The notes under the pieces are model-generated. The model saw only the letters and a list, made by a program, of their open reading frames with translations. It did no database searches and was not told where the DNA came from. From Tolypeutes matacus (Eukaryota > Chordata > Mammalia > Cingulata > Chlamyphoridae): a stretch of 64,000 nt of DNA. This document shows, in pieces, positions 5,370 to 62,135 of the stretch; positions within the stretch are counted from its first letter, which is position 1, and each line of letters starts with the position of its first letter. The position numbers were made by a program, and so were the translations under genes. Location: NCBI GenBank assembly GCA_026826555.1, contig JAKSZT010053887.1, forward strand, positions 62,846,167 through 62,910,166. Reading direction: 5' to 3'.

Positions 5370-5970
5370 AGATTTTAAAAATGTGTTTATAGTATTATAA
5401 TTACACAGTTCAAAATTCAAGAAGTATGTGAGCATATCAGGCAAAAATTTTCCCTCCTTCTTCTGAACCTCATCCACCCACTTCATTTGTCCACAGAAGA
5501 CCAATATTGTTAGTTTCGTGTAAACTTGCACAGGTATTTTACAGAATTAACAAGAAGTACACATATCTTTGTTTCCCCTTTGTTACATAAATGGTGCATA
5601 CTATTCAGCATCTTTTGTTTGTTTGTTTTTTTACTTAATATATCTTGGAATGCTTACAAATTAGTACATAAAGAGCCACTTCATTATTTTTCATGCCTTC
5701 TTAATATTCCATTGAATAGAATTACCATGATATTTATTTAACCAGTCTCATATTGATAAATTGTTTTGAATCGTTTACTATTACAAACAATCACACAATG
5801 AATTAGGTCGTAAAAATTTCATTTGTGAAAGCATGATTATATCTAAAAGATAAATTCCTAAAGGTGGAATTGCTGTTCAAGGTCATGTGTATTTAAAATT
5901 TGTTAAATGCTGCCAAATTACCTTCCATAGAGGTAGTACTAATTTACACTCCCACTGGAAATGTATGAGA
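5370..5970 (-). mobile_element. L1M (L1ME-like) 3' portion, antisense
   Basis: The plus strand carries the reverse of an old L1 3' region: aatatcttggaatgcttaca, attccattgaatagaatta, taaattcctaaaggtggaat and tttacactcccactgg. These match, in order, the recurring L1M antisense text. Diverged and without a usable frame. Confidence 0.78.
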
Positions 5971-8900
5971 ACTCTTCAAACTAGACTTCTTAAAATCTAA
6001 ACCAAACATCAGTTTCTTGGTTTCTCCAACTTGAGTTGAAATTCTAGAAAGGGGAGGGCTAGGGACAATGAAATAACACTCAAATAGAATTTTGAGGCTG
6101 GTGCTCACTTGCCTGGCCATCATCTGCAGAGGCAGCAAGCCTCTAGAAAGGTCGTGATTTGACATGGTGCTGTATTCCACAGGCATGGTGGCAATAGCAT
6201 AGTGAGGGAAGGAGAGGTTCCAGGACTGTGAGTCTGAAGGTGGCTTTATAGGGTTTCCCTCAGACCAGGGGGGCATAGAAGATGCACCTTAGGGTTTTGG
6301 GGGCTGACAGAGGGCTTGGAAATGCCAAAGGGAGCAGTGGAAAAGAAGAGAACTGGATTTGGGACAAGGAGGCCTCAGAGGGCAGAGAACCTGCCATCAG
6401 CAGCTATACCACATCTTCTATTTTCAGTAGCAAATGACACCAGTAAGACCAGTTGGAACCTGACAGATATCCATGAGGAATACCCTCTCCTAGGCCAAGT
6501 GATGGGGACAGGGGATGCAGCAGGATAAGATGCCTAGCTAAAGACCAACTAGAAGCAGACACCCATGCCCTAATCAGAGAATAGTATACAAACGTGAATC
6601 ACAACTGGCAGTAGTGCAAGGACTCTATACTCTCCTGCTTTACCCCTTCTGCTCGAATATTTCTTTCCCAATATGCCCAATGCCCTGATCTTGGCTCTCT
6701 TCTCTTCTTTCACTGTTTCCTTTGGTATTCACTCCTAGTCACAGACCACAAAATCTACCCTAACTAATTCAAACAGAAAGAAACTCACAAAACATTATTG
6801 GGAAGCTCCAGGAAACTCCAGAGAAACATGGAAACGAGGTTGAGATGTAAATCCAGCAGCAATGAAGCTGGCAGAAAAACCCAATAGAAACTACAGCCAC
6901 CACTGCTCATTTCCGATTCCATGATGCTAGGGAAGGGATGTTAGAAATTCTGCCACAGCTACCCTAGAATAACCGAGACCTCCACCACTGTGCCTGCCTG
7001 CTTCCCTCCTGTGAGTGTCGACTGCCCCTTTTTGCTGCCCCTTTTGATGTGAAACTGGTTGGAATCGGGCTACATATGGAGCTCTGGCCGTAAGGGTGCC
7101 TGGGGACATCTTTGTTTGGTTTCTTGGTCTACAGAATAAGAAAGCTAGAAAGAAATGTGTTGGGGTGGGTTTTGCATGAACCAGACAAAAGTATCTGCTT
7201 CATCCTATATTTCAACTGTGACCTTTATACTGAAGAGTTCCAAACACATACACATCTGAGCCTCAGGATTGCATTGTCAGCTTCCTACTAGACAGAGAAA
7301 ATGACTTGATTACAGTGTGGAAGCAACACCTCTTTTGAAATAACACCACTTTTTACCGATTCTTTTTCCTAAAGCTAGCCTTTCCCCCTATATTTAGCAT
7401 GCTTGTATGAGGTCTCTGGAGACATGTTCTCACCACCCTGTCTTCTGAGTTTTTCTTACGAACAGATCTTCCTAAGTTCCCTAAGTTGCAATCCTCAGGC
7501 TGAATGCCAGTGGCATTGCTGTCGTGCTTCAGCTGAAAATAGGTAAAAGGAGGAGCAGTTATTTCTTTAAAGGTAAGACATTTAAATTCTGACCCAACAT
7601 GTTGAATGCAAGATGATTAACCATTAAATGCTCTCCTCCCCACTTAAATGCAGATTTGGTTTCTGTGGTTTTTCTGTGTAGGTGGAATTACAGCCTGGAG
7701 CGTGGTGCCCTGGTACACACACCACAGTGGTTCCCACTGGGTCCCAGCACTTTTCAAGTTCCTTGTTCACAGTCCATTTCTCCCAGTCATTCCTGATTTA
7801 CCATGTAATTTTGCTTCTTTTTCCATTTCTTCTCCCCCTACTCTTTATTCACATGTGTTTAAACATTTCTTCTATCCATTGATTACTGCTCTGCTGTTTT
7901 ATCATTGCATGGCCAGTCCTTCAGGTAGTCCAATTACTCCAAACTGATTTTTACAAGCACATTGATATACTTAGAAGGTAGGAAGTGAACATATGCAGCA
8001 GTGAAAAAAATCTTGTTAGATATTTTTGTAAAAGGGAGCTTTGGCCTGAAGGCTGGACCATAGATTTCTGGAGTCAATGTGCCAAAAAGCACGATTATGA
8101 GAAACATTAGAGAGGTCTTTAATTTAAGCATATATGGAAATGCATTTGCATGCAAGAAATGTAGCATCTTGTGTTAGCTGATGCTGTATGTATCTTTGTT
8201 TCCTTTTTCATTTTAAAAGATGCTGTAATCTTTCAAGTCACTGAATGTGGTTAGAGGCTTAGGGATAAAACCTGTAGGCTACTGGTGGTTGGGAAATGTT
8301 GACTTTTTCCCCTTTGCATTTCACTTTCTTTCATTTAGAGAAAATATTGTGATTTTTTTCTTTGTTTCCTGCCTGGAGTTCTTGAAAAGCTTATTCTAAC
8401 AATTCCATTGGCATTTTGCCTACTTGAGCTCTTCCAGTTAAATAATACTTTATGAAGTGCAGGCTTTTCCCTTCCCCTCTGCTATTTTCTTGGTTAAAAT
8501 GTGTTTTGTGTCTTGACTCTTCAGTAAACTTTGTGAGCAAAAATTTGAGACTTTTGGGCATTAGGAATGGTGCACTAATTATTTGGTTTTCAAGAAACAA
8601 GCCTTTTAAAAGAATGGAACATGAGTAATTTTCAATTCTCATTATTTTTTAAAGTTTCTCTATAAATTGCCCTTTTCCCTGTAGGCACAGAAGCTCATTA
8701 TTTAAAGCTACAAAGGTGAATGGTTTTATTTTCACTATACAATTATTCCTGCAAAAGCCAGATATTGATTCTTCTGTTGGATGTAAAGTAATTTTTAAAA
8801 ACTTTTTCCTTATTTATCTTTAAAGATGAGCATTTTAAAGGCATGATTCTGCTTTTTCTAATAAATAACTGCATAACTTAAGTTCTCCACATCATTTCAT

Positions 8901-10994: not shown

Positions 10995-11426
10995 AGGAAG
11001 TGAATGTGGCTCAAGTGGTTGGGCATCCATCTACCATATGGAAGGACCCGGGTTCAATCCCTGGGACCTCCTGGTAAAATAAAAAAAAAAAAAAGGCAGG
11101 TGGGTAAGCCAGGCCCATGGAGCCACGAAGCAGGATGATGATGCAACAAGAGACAGATGCAAGGGAGAGCCAAGGCGAGATGCACCAGAAACTAGGAACT
11201 GAGGTGGCACAAGTGACAGGGTGCCTCTATCCCACATCAGAAGGCCCTAGGATTGAATCTTGGTGAAGCCTGAAGGAGAAAAATGAGAAGAGAAGGCAAG
11301 AAACAGACACAGAAGATCACCCAGTGAATGGACACAGACAGCAAGTGGGGGGGTGGGGGTGGGGTCACGACGATTCATAGAACTGTACACCAAAATGAAA
11401 AAATAAAGTCAATTAAAAAACAAAAC
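10995..11426 (+). mobile_element. Dimeric DAS-type SINE with 15-bp TSD
   Basis: The tRNA-like head gaatgtggctcaagtggttg carries a B box in gggttcaatccc and gggacctcctgg. An A-rich linker follows, then a second tRNA-like unit (actgaggtggcacaagtgac … ggattgaatctt) and a cacagaagatcac-type body. It is bounded by perfect copies of aatctcaatatgacc at 10980-10994 and 11427-11441. The head-linker-second-head structure is the long form of this SINE and is the same form found inside the composite elements. Confidence 0.9.
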
Positions 11427-30517: not shown

Positions 30518-30618
30518 GGGGATGGATGTGGCTCAAATGGTTGGGCGTCCATCTCCCATATGGAGGGAACTGGGTTTGATCCCCAGGACCTCCCGGTAAA
30601 AAAAAAAAAAAGGTGTTA
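30518..30618 (+). mobile_element. DAS-type SINE, short monomeric form, in L1M
   Basis: ggggatggatgtggctcaaa … ttgatccccaggacctcccg and an A-tail. Perfect 15-bp TSD aaaatattatttcat at 30503-30517 and 30619-30633. L1 text resumes directly afterwards. Confidence 0.93.
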
Positions 30619-30682: not shown

Positions 30683-31090
30683 GGGAAGCCGATGTGGCTC
30701 AAGCGATTAGGCTCCCGTCTACCATATGGGAGGTCCCGGGTTCGATTCCCGGGACCTCCTGGTGAAGGCAAAAGCGGGACCGCATGGAGAGCTGATGCAA
30801 CAAGATGACACACCAAAAAAAGAGACACAGAGGAAAACGACAATGAGAGACACAATAAACCAGGGACCTGAGATGGCTCAAGTGATTGAGTGCCTCTTTC
30901 CCATGTCAGAAGGTCCCAGGATCAGTTCCTTGTGCCTCCTAAAGAGAAGATGAGAAGAGAAGACAAGCAGACACAGAAGAATGCACAATGAGTAGACACA
31001 GAGAGCAGACAGGAAGCGCAAGCAGCAAGGGTGTGTGTGTGTGTGTGTGTGTGTGTAATAAATAAAATAAAATAAATATTAAAAAAAAAA
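30683..31090 (+). mobile_element. Dimeric DAS-type SINE, well preserved, in L1M
   Basis: The tRNA-like head has an A box (tggctcaagcg, 30695-30705) and B box (ggttcgattcc, 30739-30749) in near-functional form. A second tRNA-like unit follows at 30858-30935 (tgagatggctcaagtgattg), then a body with a (GT)14 run and an A-rich tail. TSD aaaggcct at 30675-30682 and 31091-31098. The intact B box and low decay suggest a relatively young copy. Confidence 0.93.
31029..31056. repeat. (GT)n microsatellite inside a SINE tail
   Basis: About 14 GT units between the SINE body and its aataaataaaa tail. Confidence 0.95.
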
Positions 31091-32278: not shown

Positions 32279-32545
32279 CTTTTTTTTTTTTAAGATTTAT
32301 TTTTATTTATTTATCTCCCCCTTGCTGCTTATGCTCTCTGTGTCTGTCTGCTTTGCGTTTTTCTGTGTCTGCTTGTCTCCCTTTTGTTGCATCATCTTGC
32401 TGCACCAGCTCACCACACCGCGGCAGGCCATCAGCTCACTGCACCGCGTGGGCCTGCTTGCCTTCACCAGGAGGCCCTGGGAATCGAACCCAGGGCCTCC
32501 CATATGGAAAACGGGAGCCCAACCAATTGAGCCACAGCTGCTTCC
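32279..32545 (-). mobile_element. DAS-type SINE with long body, perfect 17-bp TSD
   Basis: Antisense head (ccaggaggccctgggaatcg … tggaaaacgggagcccaacc), then a body ending in taagatttatttttatttat and poly(T). The TSD ctattgttactattatt is identical at 32262-32278 and 32546-32562. One tRNA-like head only. The perfect TSD and intact CpGs (accgcggc, accgcgtg) point to a recent insertion. Confidence 0.95.
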
Positions 32546-32690
32546 CTATTGTTACTATTATTATTAATTACTTTGATGCTAAAATTATTTCATATTTGGC
32601 TAATGGGAGCTACTTTAAGCTAGCTCTTTGCCTTTTCAGCAATTTCCTATAATATTCTGAACAAGTTCTGTTACAAAAAATATTCCAGGC
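32546..32690 (-). mobile_element. L1ME-like 3' UTR, antisense, part 2
   Basis: tttggctaatgggagctact … aagctagctctttgcctttt continues the repeat from 31742-32278. Confidence 0.62.
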
Positions 32691-36525: not shown

Positions 36526-36592
36526 TCCTTTTTTTTCTTGATTTATACCTTCATTTTGGTGGAGCACATCATCAGATTCTCAATAGCTTTCT
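36526..36592 (-). mobile_element. L1ME-like 3' UTR, antisense, left of the composite element
   Basis: tttggtggagcacatcatca then ttctcaatagctttct. The sentence is completed at 37517 (tcaatagctttctgagaaat), showing where the composite inserted. Confidence 0.7.
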
Positions 36593-36842
36593 TTTTTTTT
36601 TTTTTAAACAATTTATTGGAATATAGCATTCATATATGAACATACATAAACTATAAGTGTTCAGTAAACATCATGAACTTACAAAACAAACATGCATGAC
36701 ATCATACAGGGCTCCCACACATCACCCCCCCAAAAAAAAACACCCTGCATTATTGTGAAACATTTATTAACAAATAATGAAAGAGCATCGTCAAAGTATT
36801 ACTAATAACTATAGTCCGTATCTTCCACTCCTATACATTTTT

Positions 36843-37299
36843 TTAAGGATTTATTTATTTATTTACTTTTATCCATTTTTAACGCCCCCCCCCGCTCCAT
36901 TTTTGTTGTTTCTGTGTCCACTCGCTGGGCGACTCTGTGTCCATTTCCTGCCCTCTCTTCTCATCCGTCTCCTCCTGTCATCACTGGGATTTGATCCTTA
37001 GAACCTCCAATGTGGGAGAGAGGCATGAGGCGTCCTACCGCCTGCATCACCTTAGTTCCCAGTTTTTTGGCGTAGCATCTAGTCTTGGCTCTCCCTTGTG
37101 TCACTCTCCTGCTACGTCATCATTTTGCTGCTCTGCTCGCAGGGCCTGGCGGCGCACCTGGGGGCAGGGCCTGGTGGCCCACGCACCTTCTATATTTGTC
37201 TTTTTTTTTTTTTTTTTTTACCGGGAGGTCCCGGGGGTTGAACTCACGTCCCTCCATATGGGAGACAGATGCCCAACCATTTGAGCCATATCTGTCCCC
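36843..37299 (-). mobile_element. Dimeric DAS-type SINE module within composite copy 1
   Basis: Antisense: gtccctccatatgggagaca and gaggtcccgggggttgaact (first tRNA-like head), a T-rich linker, then actgggatttgatccttaga and atgtgggagagaggcatg (second head), then the body and ttatttatttatttac. Same architecture as the free SINE at 10995-11426, but it has no TSD of its own that I can see. Confidence 0.85.
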
Positions 37300-37516
37300 C
37301 TATTATATCTCTTAAGGTTGACCAAAGATACCTAGAGTTACATTCATTTCCCATACAGGATGGTCACACAAAATATTAGGCTTAGTTTATCACCAGCATT
37401 CCAAAAACCAGACCTAGGGAGAAAAACTAGGTCTGAGGACATGCATGGTTTCTAATATAGCGAATGTTTAGCCTACCCTGATTATCACAAAATCAGGACA
37501 GTGAGAATATTTGCAT
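37300..37516 (-). other. Unassigned 5' module of composite copy 1
   Basis: 217 bp with no match to any element I know. It contains two conserved short inverted repeats: agacctag … ctaggtct (9-base loop, 37412-37436 region) and ctgatt … aatcag (37478-37496 region). It probably carries the promoter, since transcription must begin upstream of the SINE's internal pol III boxes. That role is inference. Confidence 0.6.
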
Positions 37517-38950
37517 TCAATAGCTTTCTGAGAAATGGTACATAGACAGTAAAATTTTGATACTTTAAAGTCTGAAAGTATCTTTCTTTTACTCTCATAC
37601 TTAAATTTGACTGGGCATAGAATTCTAAGTTGAATATATTTTTTCTCTTGAAATTTTGAAAGTATATTTCCCATTTTTCTTCTAACTTCTTATGTTGTTA
37701 ATGAAAAGGCCAATGTAATTTTGATTTGTAATTTATTTTATAAATTAACTTAATGATTTTTTTTCCTCTCTGGAACTTTAATGATTATCTTTTTATTCCT
37801 GGTGTTCCAGAATTTCATATGTCTATGCTTTGTGTATATCTTTTTCCCTTTACTGTGCTCAGTACTCAAGAGACCCATTTCATCTGGGAAATCTATGCTT
37901 TGGTTATGGAAAATGTTTTTGTTTGCATTACTTTTTATGCTTTCTATTTCTGAATACTTTTATTTTGGATGTTGGACTTGTACCAGTACCCTAATTTTAA
38001 TTTTTCTTTCATAATTTTTCTCTTTTTTTCATTTATATTTATATCCTGTGAGATTTCCTCAACTTTATTTCCCAGAACTTGTATTGAAATTCTTATTTCT
38101 GCTATATATATTTTTTTATTTTCCAAAAATCTTCTGTTAGTCATTCAATCTCTTTTTAATAGCTCCCTGCTCTTGTTCCACAAACACTGTATCTCATTTG
38201 ATCTCTCTGGGAAACTAATTAAGGTTTTTTTGTTCTTTTACACCCTCTTCTGCTCCCTGAATTGTTTCTTTTCTAGGGTTTCATTGTTTCTTTTTGCTTC
38301 TTTATTTTCACGAAAGGCCCAAATGCCTGATGATTCTTTACTGTCTGTTCATATTTACTAATTAATCAAAAGTTCTGCATGTGAGGGTGGTGCTTACTAA
38401 AAAGCTTACTATAAGGTGATCTTTAGGGGCTATCCAAATGTTAGTATCTATAGAAATTTTTGATCCTTGGGTTGTTCTGTTCCCTCAGAAGGCAATCTTC
38501 CTTGCTTTTCCTTGGGAATGAGGCTCACTTCCAAGTAGATGAAAGGAATTAGGAGGTCTCTCTGTTTTTCACTAAATACCCATTTTTAGTATGGTGCTTT
38601 CATATATCATATTGTACCTCGGCTGTATCTGGTGTGTCTTATTCCTGCAAAACTCAACATCAAATTGTCTGTCAAAGAAAGGGGGGAATATTTGCCTTGT
38701 TGCACTGGGTGAGAGGAGCTATCCAAGTCTAAGTGCCATGCATAATTTCAACAAATCCTCATGTTTTTAACCCCACTTGCATTCTTCACATCTAAGCTAA
38801 CTGATAACTCCACTTTGTGCTTTTTCTGGGGTTTTTGCACCTCGAATTTAATTGTCTTGTTTCTGGAAAAAATTGTTGCCATTTTTTTTTCCTATCTTTG
38901 TTTCCTGTCCTGCTCCAATTTTCTTGGAAATGCATGCTTTTAAAAATTTC
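37517..38950 (-). mobile_element. L1ME-like 3' UTR, antisense, right of the composite element
   Basis: ttctgagaaatggtacatag, aaatttgactgggcatagaa, ttcctggtgttccagaattt and attcttatttctgctatata follow the long 3' UTR of L1ME-class elements in reverse. Confidence falls after about 38400. The 130-residue plus frame 37969-38361 is a by-product of T-rich decay. Confidence 0.62.
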
Positions 38951-46050: not shown

Positions 46051-46538
46051 TTGAAACGATTAGAATAAACAAACATGTAGAGTTGGAATCTAGAATATAG
46101 GTTACCAGGGCATGAGGTGGGCATAGGGAATGGGAGGTTAAACCTTAAATTGTACATGGTTCCAATTTGGAATGATGGAAATGTTTTTGTAAGGATGGTG
46201 GTGATGGTAGAACAGCATTATGAATGCAATTAAAAGCACTGAACTATATATCTGAATATGATTAAAAGGGGAAATGTTAGATTGTGTATACGGTAACAGC
46301 ATAAAAATTTTTTAAAAATCCATGGACCTATACTACACAGTCAGAAAACCATACATTAAACTATGGTCTAGAAATAATAGTACAATTATAAAAATGTGCA
46401 TTTGTGTAACAAATGGTCCACACCAAAGCTAGGTATTGGTCATGGGGTGGTATGTGAGAATCCTGTATTTTATGCATGATTGTTCTATAAACCAACAATT
46501 TCTCTATAATGAAAGAAAGTAAATAAAAACTTGGTTAA

Positions 46539-57583: not shown

Positions 57584-58169
57584 TGTTAGACTGTAACTTA
57601 CTGACCCTGAGGTCAAGCTATGTGTCCAAACGCAGAATGCTCCGTTCTGGCTCCTGCTCTTTTCACACCCCTGCCGAACCACAGAAAATTCTCTTCCCCA
57701 ATGATAAGGCAGTCCTCAGAAAGTCACTCCCTGCCCCAAGAACAGCATGCATGGTACTTTTCCACCCCATATCTTTGCGCCCCTCTCCAACCCAACCTAA
57801 CTCTGCCATTTCAGAAGGTACTCCCCAGCTCAGTCAGATGGGCTGGAGTTTCCGTTCAGACCCCCGCCATGTGGGCAGGCTGGTGTCTCTCTTCAGACCT
57901 CCACTATGCTGGCAACCTAATAAACTCTTTTTTTTTTTTTTTTTTTTTTTAATTGAAGTATATCATTCATACATGAACACACATAAACTATAAGTGTTCA
58001 GTAAACATCGTGAACTTACAAAACAAGCATGCATAACACCATACAGGGCTCCCACACATCACCCCCCCACAAATACCCTGCATTGTTGTGAAACATTTGT
58101 TAACAAATCATGAAACTGCATCGTCAAAGTATTACTGACTATAGTCCGTATCTCCCTTCCCTATACATT

Positions 58170-58609
58170 TTTTTAAAGGATTTATTTACTTTTATCCATT
58201 TTTACCCCCACCCCCACCCCGTTTTTGCTGTTTCTGTGTCCATTCACTGGGCAACTCTCTGTACCCATTTCCTGCCCTCACTTCTTATCCTTTTCCTCCT
58301 CTCTTCTCTGGGATTCGATTCTCAGAATCTCCGATGTGGGAGAGAGGCATCCTACTGCGTGTACCACCTTAGTTCCTGGTTTTTCGGCATGTCTTGTCTT
58401 GGCTCTCCCTTGTGTCACTCTCTTGTTACGTCATCATCTTGCTGCATGGCTTGTGGAGACTGGCGGCACACCCGTGCACGGGGCCTAGCAGCCCATGCGC
58501 TTCCTATATTTTTCTTTTTTTAATTTATACCGGGAGGTCCCGGGGATCAAACCCAGGTTCCTAAATATGGGAGACTGATGCCCAGCCACCCGAGCCACAT
58601 CCGTCCCCC
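58170..58609 (-). mobile_element. Dimeric DAS-type SINE module within composite copy 2
   Basis: Antisense: accgggaggtcccggggatc and gggagactgatgcccagcc (first head), then ctgggattcgattctcagaa and gatgtgggagagaggcatcc (second head), then tttctgtgtccattcactgg. Positioned exactly as in composite copy 1. Confidence 0.85.
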
Positions 58610-58825
58610 TGCTATATCTCTTAAGGTTGACCAAAGATACAAAGTTACAATCTTTTCCCATACAGGATGGTCATATAATAAATCAGGCTTAGTTTATCAC
58701 CAGCATTCTAAAATCCAGATCTAGGGAGAAAAACTAGGTCTGGGGACACATGCATGGTTTCTAATACAGTGAATGTTTGGCCTACCCTGATTATCACAAA
58801 ATCAGGTCAGCGAGAATATTCGCGT
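58610..58825 (-). other. Unassigned 5' module of composite copy 2
   Basis: 216 bp, co-linear with 37300-37516. The two short inverted repeats are kept (agatctag … ctaggtct with one change; ctgatt … aatcag). There is no coding frame and no family match known to me. Confidence 0.6.
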
Positions 58826-58889
58826 CTAATAAACTCTTGCCTGAATCTTGGTCTGTCTCTGAGCCTCTTTAACCTGGGCTTTAAACACA

Positions 58890-61850: not shown

Positions 61851-61911
61851 GTTTTTTAATTAGAGAAGTTGTAGGTTTTCAGAAAAGACATATAAAAAGA
61901 CAGTGTTCCCA

Positions 61912-62135
61912 TATGCCCCCTTATTGTTGACACTTTTCATTAGTGTGGTACCTTTGTTACAATTGATGAAAGAATATTAAAATAGTACTATTAACTACAG
62001 TCTATAGTTTACATTAGGTGTATTTTTCCATATACTACCCTATTATTAACACCTTGTAATAATGTTGTACATTTGTTATAATTCATGAAAGAACATTCAT
62101 ATACTTGTACTATTAACCCCAGTCCATCATCCACA
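61912..62135 (-). repeat. Tandem duplication within the L1 3' UTR
   Basis: tggtacctttgttacaattgatgaaagaatatt … actattaac and ttgtacatttgttataattcatgaaagaacatt … actattaac repeat with a period of about 120 bp (61945-62010 and 62063-62120). Other L1 tails in the window show only one copy of this block. Confidence 0.7.

Follow-up and report, generated by a model that had tools for sequence, protein, structure and literature searches.

A SNORA72-headed composite element in the armadillo Tolypeutes matacus: evidence for a high-copy retroposon family with an L1-type tail

Two insertions in a 64,000-nucleotide stretch of the Tolypeutes matacus genome (contig JAKSZT010053887.1, positions 62,846,167 to 62,910,166; the whole stretch is referred to here as the window) raise the question of what kind of mobile element joins a SINE to an L1-like 3′ end behind a further 5′ module, and whether such an element has moved as a unit. 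A first-pass annotation had described the same three-part order in both, copy A (36593-37516) and copy B (57930-58825), called the 5′ module unknown, and read the pair as independent insertions of a composite comparable to primate SVA. Both copies lie in the minus sense and align over their full length (82.6% identity by BLAST; 86.1% over 873 ungapped columns), confirming that their modules occur in the same order. An exact 13-bp target site duplication (TSD), particular to the copy, encloses each of them, and no match was found between the flanks of A and those of B; the two are therefore separate insertions, in agreement with the annotation. A search with the joined flanks found no empty-site paralogue of either insertion within the window; the joined flank of B has two 54-bp patches of 74-76% identity elsewhere in the window. 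The parts of both copies are listed in Table 1.

Table 1. Parts and boundaries of the two window copies (window positions; nt, nucleotide of the element)
Feature	Position	Strand	Basis
Copy A SNORA72, complete H/ACA snoRNA, nt 1-132	37385..37516	-	Rfam RF00139, 130.2 bits, model 1-132 of 132
Copy A link, nt 133-217, 85 nt	37300..37384	-	No Rfam match; no L1 similarity above shuffles; accompanies SNORA72 in the genome
Copy A two-part SINE, DAS-like, with a tRNA-type head (from GGGGAC), an A-rich linker, the 25-bp repeat, a second part and an A-rich end	36838..37299	-	Matches standalone SINEs of the window; boundaries from A/B alignment
Copy A 25-bp GC-rich repeat, ~2 units	37129..37173	-	Unit phasing by eye; array detected in L054, L056, L060
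Copy A L1-type 3′-end tail, AATAAA near its end (nt 900)	36606..36837	-	L1 similarity; tail profile matches L1 3′ ends in L062, L063
Copy A poly(A) tail	36593..36605	-	Sequence
Copy A TSD, poly(A) side	36580..36592		Exact 13 bp
Copy A TSD, snoRNA side	37517..37529		Exact 13 bp
Copy B SNORA72, complete	58692..58825	-	Rfam RF00139, 127.8 bits, model 1-132
Copy B link, 83 nt	58609..58691	-	nhmmer with link profile; end from A/B alignment
Copy B DAS-like two-part SINE	58168..58608	-	Matches standalone SINEs of the window; alignment with A
Copy B L1-type 3′-end tail	57951..58167	-	L1 similarity; ATTAAA instead of AATAAA near its end
Copy B poly(A) tail	57930..57950	-	Sequence
Copy B TSD, poly(A) side	57917..57929		Exact 13 bp
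Copy B TSD, snoRNA side	58826..58838		Exact 13 bp

Further copies came from two sources. Copy A was searched against its own assembly (3.63 Gb), giving 11,463 first-look candidates, of which 40 were scored and all 40 matched, A among them. The other 39 were fetched with 300-base flanks, and one of them (L047, which has no snoRNA) was omitted from the start, TSD, divergence and tree counts, so that with A and B these counts cover 40 copies. All of them except B are best matches to a full-length query, and their completeness is thus a product of selection; the only unselected copies are four found in a sample of 20 fixed-spaced 10-kb stretches from three large contigs (668 of the 200,000 bases are N).

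The module that the annotation had left as unknown proved to consist of two parts, of which the outer one is a complete SNORA72 and the inner one is here called the link. In both A and B, position 1 of the SNORA72 model (Rfam RF00139) falls on the first base of the element, directly adjoining the TSD, and the scores in Table 1 compare with an Rfam gathering score of 43. The full model was found in 38 of the 39 fetched copies, L047 being the exception, as well as in both window copies, and its first position coincides with the first base of the element in 40 of 40 aligned copies. A loosely defined H-box pattern is present in all 40 of these copies and ATAAAC in 39, and runs of four or more T lie within the snoRNA at nt 25, 91-93 and 110-113. 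In the 5′ stem, copy A and the family majority differ from the Rfam consensus by two one-sided changes that keep pairing as G-U, and in copy B one of the two pairs is broken; perhaps the source snoRNA stayed under selection.

The link (83-85 nt) matched no Rfam family. An origin in the L1 3′ UTR was considered and rejected, its scores against the L1 3′ UTRs of the window being no better than those of shuffled sequences. An exact-pattern scan of viral contigs for the snoRNA stem and the link gave no match. In the 200-kb sample, link and snoRNA occurred only together, three times each, and only within composites.

The middle of the element begins at GGGGAC (nt 218), ends in an A-rich stretch of its own and matches the standalone tRNA-type SINEs of the window, in keeping with its earlier assignment as a SINE. 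The matching standalone sequences are monomers at 30519 and 21885 and long SINEs at 11004-11364, 30689-31085 and 32374-32548; a standalone SINE at 32469-32541 scores as a tRNA at 34.6 bits, and the head of copy L009 does so at 30.4 bits. We call this SINE DAS-like, following the annotation, which placed it in the DAS type. The head of DAS-SINEs is derived from tRNA-Ala. Between A and B, the non-CpG distance of the SINE part (0.17-0.22) exceeds those of the link (0.12), the tail (0.09) and the snoRNA (0.06). A sequence that precedes the SINE head, AAGAGATATAGCAG, resembles AAAAATATAGAAGG, which follows the A-rich linker of the head, in five of six copies (L068 is the exception); the likeness could mark the SINE head's own TSD or could derive from the long SINE itself.

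The three-part order described earlier was borne out as far as it went, and it overlooked a GC-rich 25-bp tandem repeat, placed in the sampled copies after the SINE head and before the second part of the SINE and limited to about two units in A and B. TRF counted 7.8 units in L054, 4.5 in L056 and 3.7 in L060, the three complete sampled copies, and the truncated copy in L062 has two units by motif count and none by TRF; given these differing counts, unit number varies between copies. Copies selected for their likeness to A mostly have about two units, a figure drawn from 47 copies in which the left anchor was misplaced in L009, L011, L019, L030 and A (lengths 195-225) and two gave no value. 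Nine standalone long SINEs, three from the window and six from the sample, were examined at the corresponding site; L064 ends short of it, and the eight that span it have zero or one motif unit and no TRF array. As far as examined, the 25-bp array is expanded in the composite only. One standalone SINE (L062 10-336) has at this site, as judged by eye, degenerate repeats of another unit.

The tail carries poly(A) and resembles L1 3′ UTRs, as had been noted from the letters alone: nhmmer matched it to the L1 3′ UTR-like sequences at 46401-46491 (E 1e-9) and 61898-62000 (E 4e-4), and in four comparisons by local alignment, tail and L1 scored above all 300 shuffles each time. The best L1 match within the window reaches only 75.5% over 94 bp. 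In the 200-kb sample, the tail profile, including its last part, matches L062 at 5847-6033 and 6118-6314 and L063 at 649-803. About 1 kb upstream of the L062 match is an ORF2-coding stretch (E 4.5e-14; residues 21-61 of 62 of a LINE-1 ORF2 protein), the two being taken as one element by eye. Because the tail profile matches these L1 3′ ends, the tail is the 3′ end of a resident L1. At L062 5600-6330 this resident L1 seems to have at least two tandem 3′ UTR end modules with short repeats between them.

An L1-like tail is also what would be seen if the elements were simply 5′-truncated L1s whose 3′ UTR carries a fixed SINE and whose 5′ module is L1 sequence. Under that explanation the 5′ module should continue into ORF2 or a longer 3′ UTR in some genomic copies, and no such continuation was seen. 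Instead, the module is SNORA72, and no sequence common to the copies precedes it. The link, which resembles L1 no more than shuffled sequence does, is confined in the 200 kb to the three complete composites and is absent from the L062 L1, and 40 of 40 aligned copies start from one base in unrelated flanks. We consider a truncated-L1 origin extremely improbable.

The insertion sites themselves were compared with controls made of 200 mismatched flank pairs, a TSD being sought, in copies and controls alike, only if it ended within two bases of nt 1. TSD scores exceeded the 95th percentile of the controls in 30 of the 40 copies and the control maximum in 17, and in the remaining 10 they did not rise above the 95th-percentile threshold; the cut sites of the 40 copies are mostly A-rich. 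Of 780 pairs of upstream flanks, 778 show no relationship and two are similar, L010/L013 and L014/L025. In L010 and L013 the likeness (74%) extends to the very edge of the element; the two may have inserted into one site of a repeat that both loci contain, or may go back to an old duplication.

Non-CpG divergence of the 40 copies from their majority sequence is lowest in the snoRNA (4.2%) and highest in the SINE (6.6%), with 4.9% for both link and tail. Mammalian neutral sequence changes at about 2.2e-9 per year, a rate at which the family would be some 20 million years old. The tree is star-like, the shape that amplification in a burst from a small number of sources would produce; one of its 37 inner branches is well supported, with the bootstrap not settled. 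These values bear on whether template switching or RNA ligation might have made every insertion anew, each a snoRNA-L1 chimera of its own without any family behind it. Small-RNA chimeras of this kind are known for U3 snoRNA and L1 and for U6 and L1, the U6 ones being usually not propagated according to PMC13174262. Against such an origin, the 40 copies have link, SINE and tail in common and lie within 4-7% non-CpG divergence of one majority sequence, and we regard repeated independent formation as very improbable; a single founding template switch is possible.

The unselected sample contains three complete composites (L054, L056 and L060) and a fourth copy, L062 3806-4355, that breaks off within the repeat; at seven other places the tail profile matches and the snoRNA is absent. 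The four copies have TSD scores of 7, 14, 11 and 10. As the highest score among 12 cross-controls was 7, three of the four lie above the controls and L054 ties with them. Three complete copies per 200 kb correspond to an estimate of about 54,000 genome-wide (95% Poisson range, 11,000-159,000). Overall, it appears, with a probability that we put at roughly 85%, that A and B belong to a high-copy, nonautonomous, L1-mobilised composite made up of SNORA72, the link, a two-part DAS-like SINE with a 25-bp VNTR, an L1 3′ end and poly(A). The common start base, constant module order, individual TSDs and star-like tree of the genome copies uphold the proposal that the composite moved as one unit. The TSDs, the A-rich cut sites, the poly(A) and the L1 3′ end are those of L1-type insertion, and the element was most likely copied by the L1 machinery.

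The family may well sit in a repeat library. With copies estimated in the tens of thousands, it would be expected in the library of this genome, and we see an even chance that it is real and already held in Dfam or Repbase under a library name, perhaps with the snoRNA unrecognised. On the other side, no description of it was found in the literature searched, which consisted mostly of titles and the beginnings of abstracts, with repeat libraries and most subscription papers outside its scope.

The 5′ module, as the annotation had anticipated, occurs in this genome in many copies that start from one base and are joined to the SINE and the L1 tail. With the Rfam SNORA72 consensus, 2,241 first-look candidates were obtained, of which 40 were scored, all 40 matching at 92-94%; 25 of these were inspected, most of them to about 170 nt past the snoRNA, and 21 of the 25 have snoRNA, link and SINE head. 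A covariance-model search, in which 47 of 599,819 candidates were scored, included L093, with link and SINE head within 170 nt downstream. Several matches depart from the common form. L084 has an internal deletion after the SINE head. L090 (C4318:5772638-5773000) has the family snoRNA, link and junction, but the SINE head that follows is another one (GGGAAGCGGCTG...) and the A-rich linker is missing, which suggests a swap of heads or an older form. L083 has the snoRNA and part of the link, then what looks by eye like antisense L1 ORF2. L070, L071 and L092 lack both link and SINE head, and their SNORA72 runs on into TAAGAC and A-rich sequence; L071 and L092 have, by eye, about 110 nt after the snoRNA in common; these three perhaps represent a second, short SNORA72-derived retroposon family.

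No source SNORA72 gene was recognisable among 26 inspected matches. The human host gene of SNORA72 is RPL30, and two partial exon matches place the probable armadillo RPL30 gene at C4899:45561382-45563413. No SNORA72 or link match fell at this putative locus among the 40-47 scored matches, which are part of the candidates only and make the result uninformative. We think, with slightly better than even confidence, that the founder was a SNORA72 locus that had a SINE and an L1 end on its downstream side and whose flanking sequence became the link. The extra sequence past the snoRNA 3′ end fits a precursor that was left uncut there and argues against a simple fusion to mature snoRNA. Template switching onto the snoRNA could also have made the 5′ end of the founder.

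A remaining question is what sets the first base of every copy. On balance we favour the view that the element carries its own 5′ end without a promoter, by means of trimming that is stopped by a snoRNP, with transcription, trimming and snoRNP binding all predicted from the DNA. The mobilised RNA would be made by Pol II, and its 5′ end would mark the edge of the snoRNP and not a promoter start. In a host transcript running through a copy, an exonuclease would trim the 5′ side and be stopped by the H/ACA proteins bound to SNORA72, the 3′ end would be made at the L1 polyadenylation signal, and the resulting snoRNA-ended, polyadenylated RNA would be taken in trans by L1 ORF2p by way of its L1 end and poly(A). 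Wherever a new copy landed in a transcribed region, it could then remake the template without having its own promoter. A snoRNP halts XRN2. In human cells, RNAs with a 5′ snoRNA end and 3′ poly(A) exist, and the proteins on an intronic snoRNA shield its ends from exonucleases, as stated in PMC11028025.

The SINE head has an A-box-like motif and, in B, a B-box-like one, which would suit a family made by Pol III, from the tRNA-type SINE promoter or from one upstream of the snoRNA, with the snoRNA as passive cargo. However, the A-box-like motif occurs only at nt 229, from which transcription would start after the snoRNA, and Pol III would tend to terminate at the T-runs within the snoRNA. These two features make a Pol III start at nt 1 unlikely, while copy A has AATAAA near its 3′ end, and we judge production of the family by Pol III to be improbable.

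In its widest form, our proposal is that the family represents a second independent origin of VNTR composites outside the hominoids and the first with an RNA 5′ end defined by a snoRNP: a promoterless, SINE-like element that lands in transcribed DNA, relies on host snoRNA trimming and is reverse-transcribed by way of an L1 3′ end. We hold this tentatively, at a little under even odds. If it is true, mammals acquired snoRNA-headed retroposons on at least two occasions, with LINE partners that differ, and the SVA plan of SINE parts, GC-rich VNTR and L1 mobilisation evolved outside apes as well, opening the role of the VNTR to comparison. The setting of the 5′ end of a mobile RNA by a snoRNP would become a directly testable mechanism. 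Such a family would also explain thousands of SNORA72-like candidates in a genome of this kind (2,241 at first look here), which matters for the annotation of noncoding RNAs.

Several known systems share features with the element. In U6 and U3 small-RNA/L1 chimeras the small RNA is fused 5′ of the L1 3′ end, and the U6 ones arise independently, by the account in PMC13174262; unlike the U6/L1 chimeras, which are usually not propagated, one structure has been propagated here. SPA lncRNAs, with a 5′ snoRNA end and a polyadenylated 3′ end, have the same architecture as the predicted mobilised RNA, but they are non-mobile host transcripts, and three named in PMC11028025 carry C/D snoRNAs and not an H/ACA snoRNA. 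The element resembles armadillo DAS-SINEs in its tRNA-type head and long dimer-like body, and similar standalone copies lie in the window; profile searches found no snoRNA or link adjoining the standalone DAS-like SINEs examined, which, unlike the element, have zero or one VNTR unit. DAS-SINEs were reportedly described with such a head and body by Churakov et al. in 2005.

The SVA, LAVA, PVA and FVA elements of hominoids are mobilised in trans by L1 and have a central GC-rich tandem repeat of variable number, and LAVA also contains L1 sequence (PMC4432496, in the part available). The armadillo element is likewise a composite with a central GC-rich tandem repeat whose unit number varies between copies, a feature of the genome copies that strengthens the original analogy with SVA. 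Its 5′ domain is SNORA72, whereas that of the SVA group is a CT-hexamer/Alu-like one; its VNTR unit measures 25 bp, against 30-50 bp in the hominoid composites; and its SINE parts are of tRNA type. Having no CT/Alu-like 5′ domain, it is not a member of the SVA group.

A further comparison is with platypus snoRTE and PlatSINE1, in which a snoRNA is joined to a LINE 3′ end (PMC5322556, PMC7245038 and PMC4233971, in their available parts), snoRTE having about 40,000 copies (PMC5322556, likewise). Like snoRTE, the armadillo element has a complete H/ACA snoRNA at its 5′ end and a LINE 3′ end. Some snoRTE copies are processed to mature snoRNA. Unlike snoRTE, with its RTE tail, the element has a tail of L1 type, a distinction drawn from the description of snoRTE, and it contains a SINE and a VNTR, neither of which is mentioned in the available portions of the snoRTE descriptions. 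The element works like snoRTE but, by its tail, is not one.
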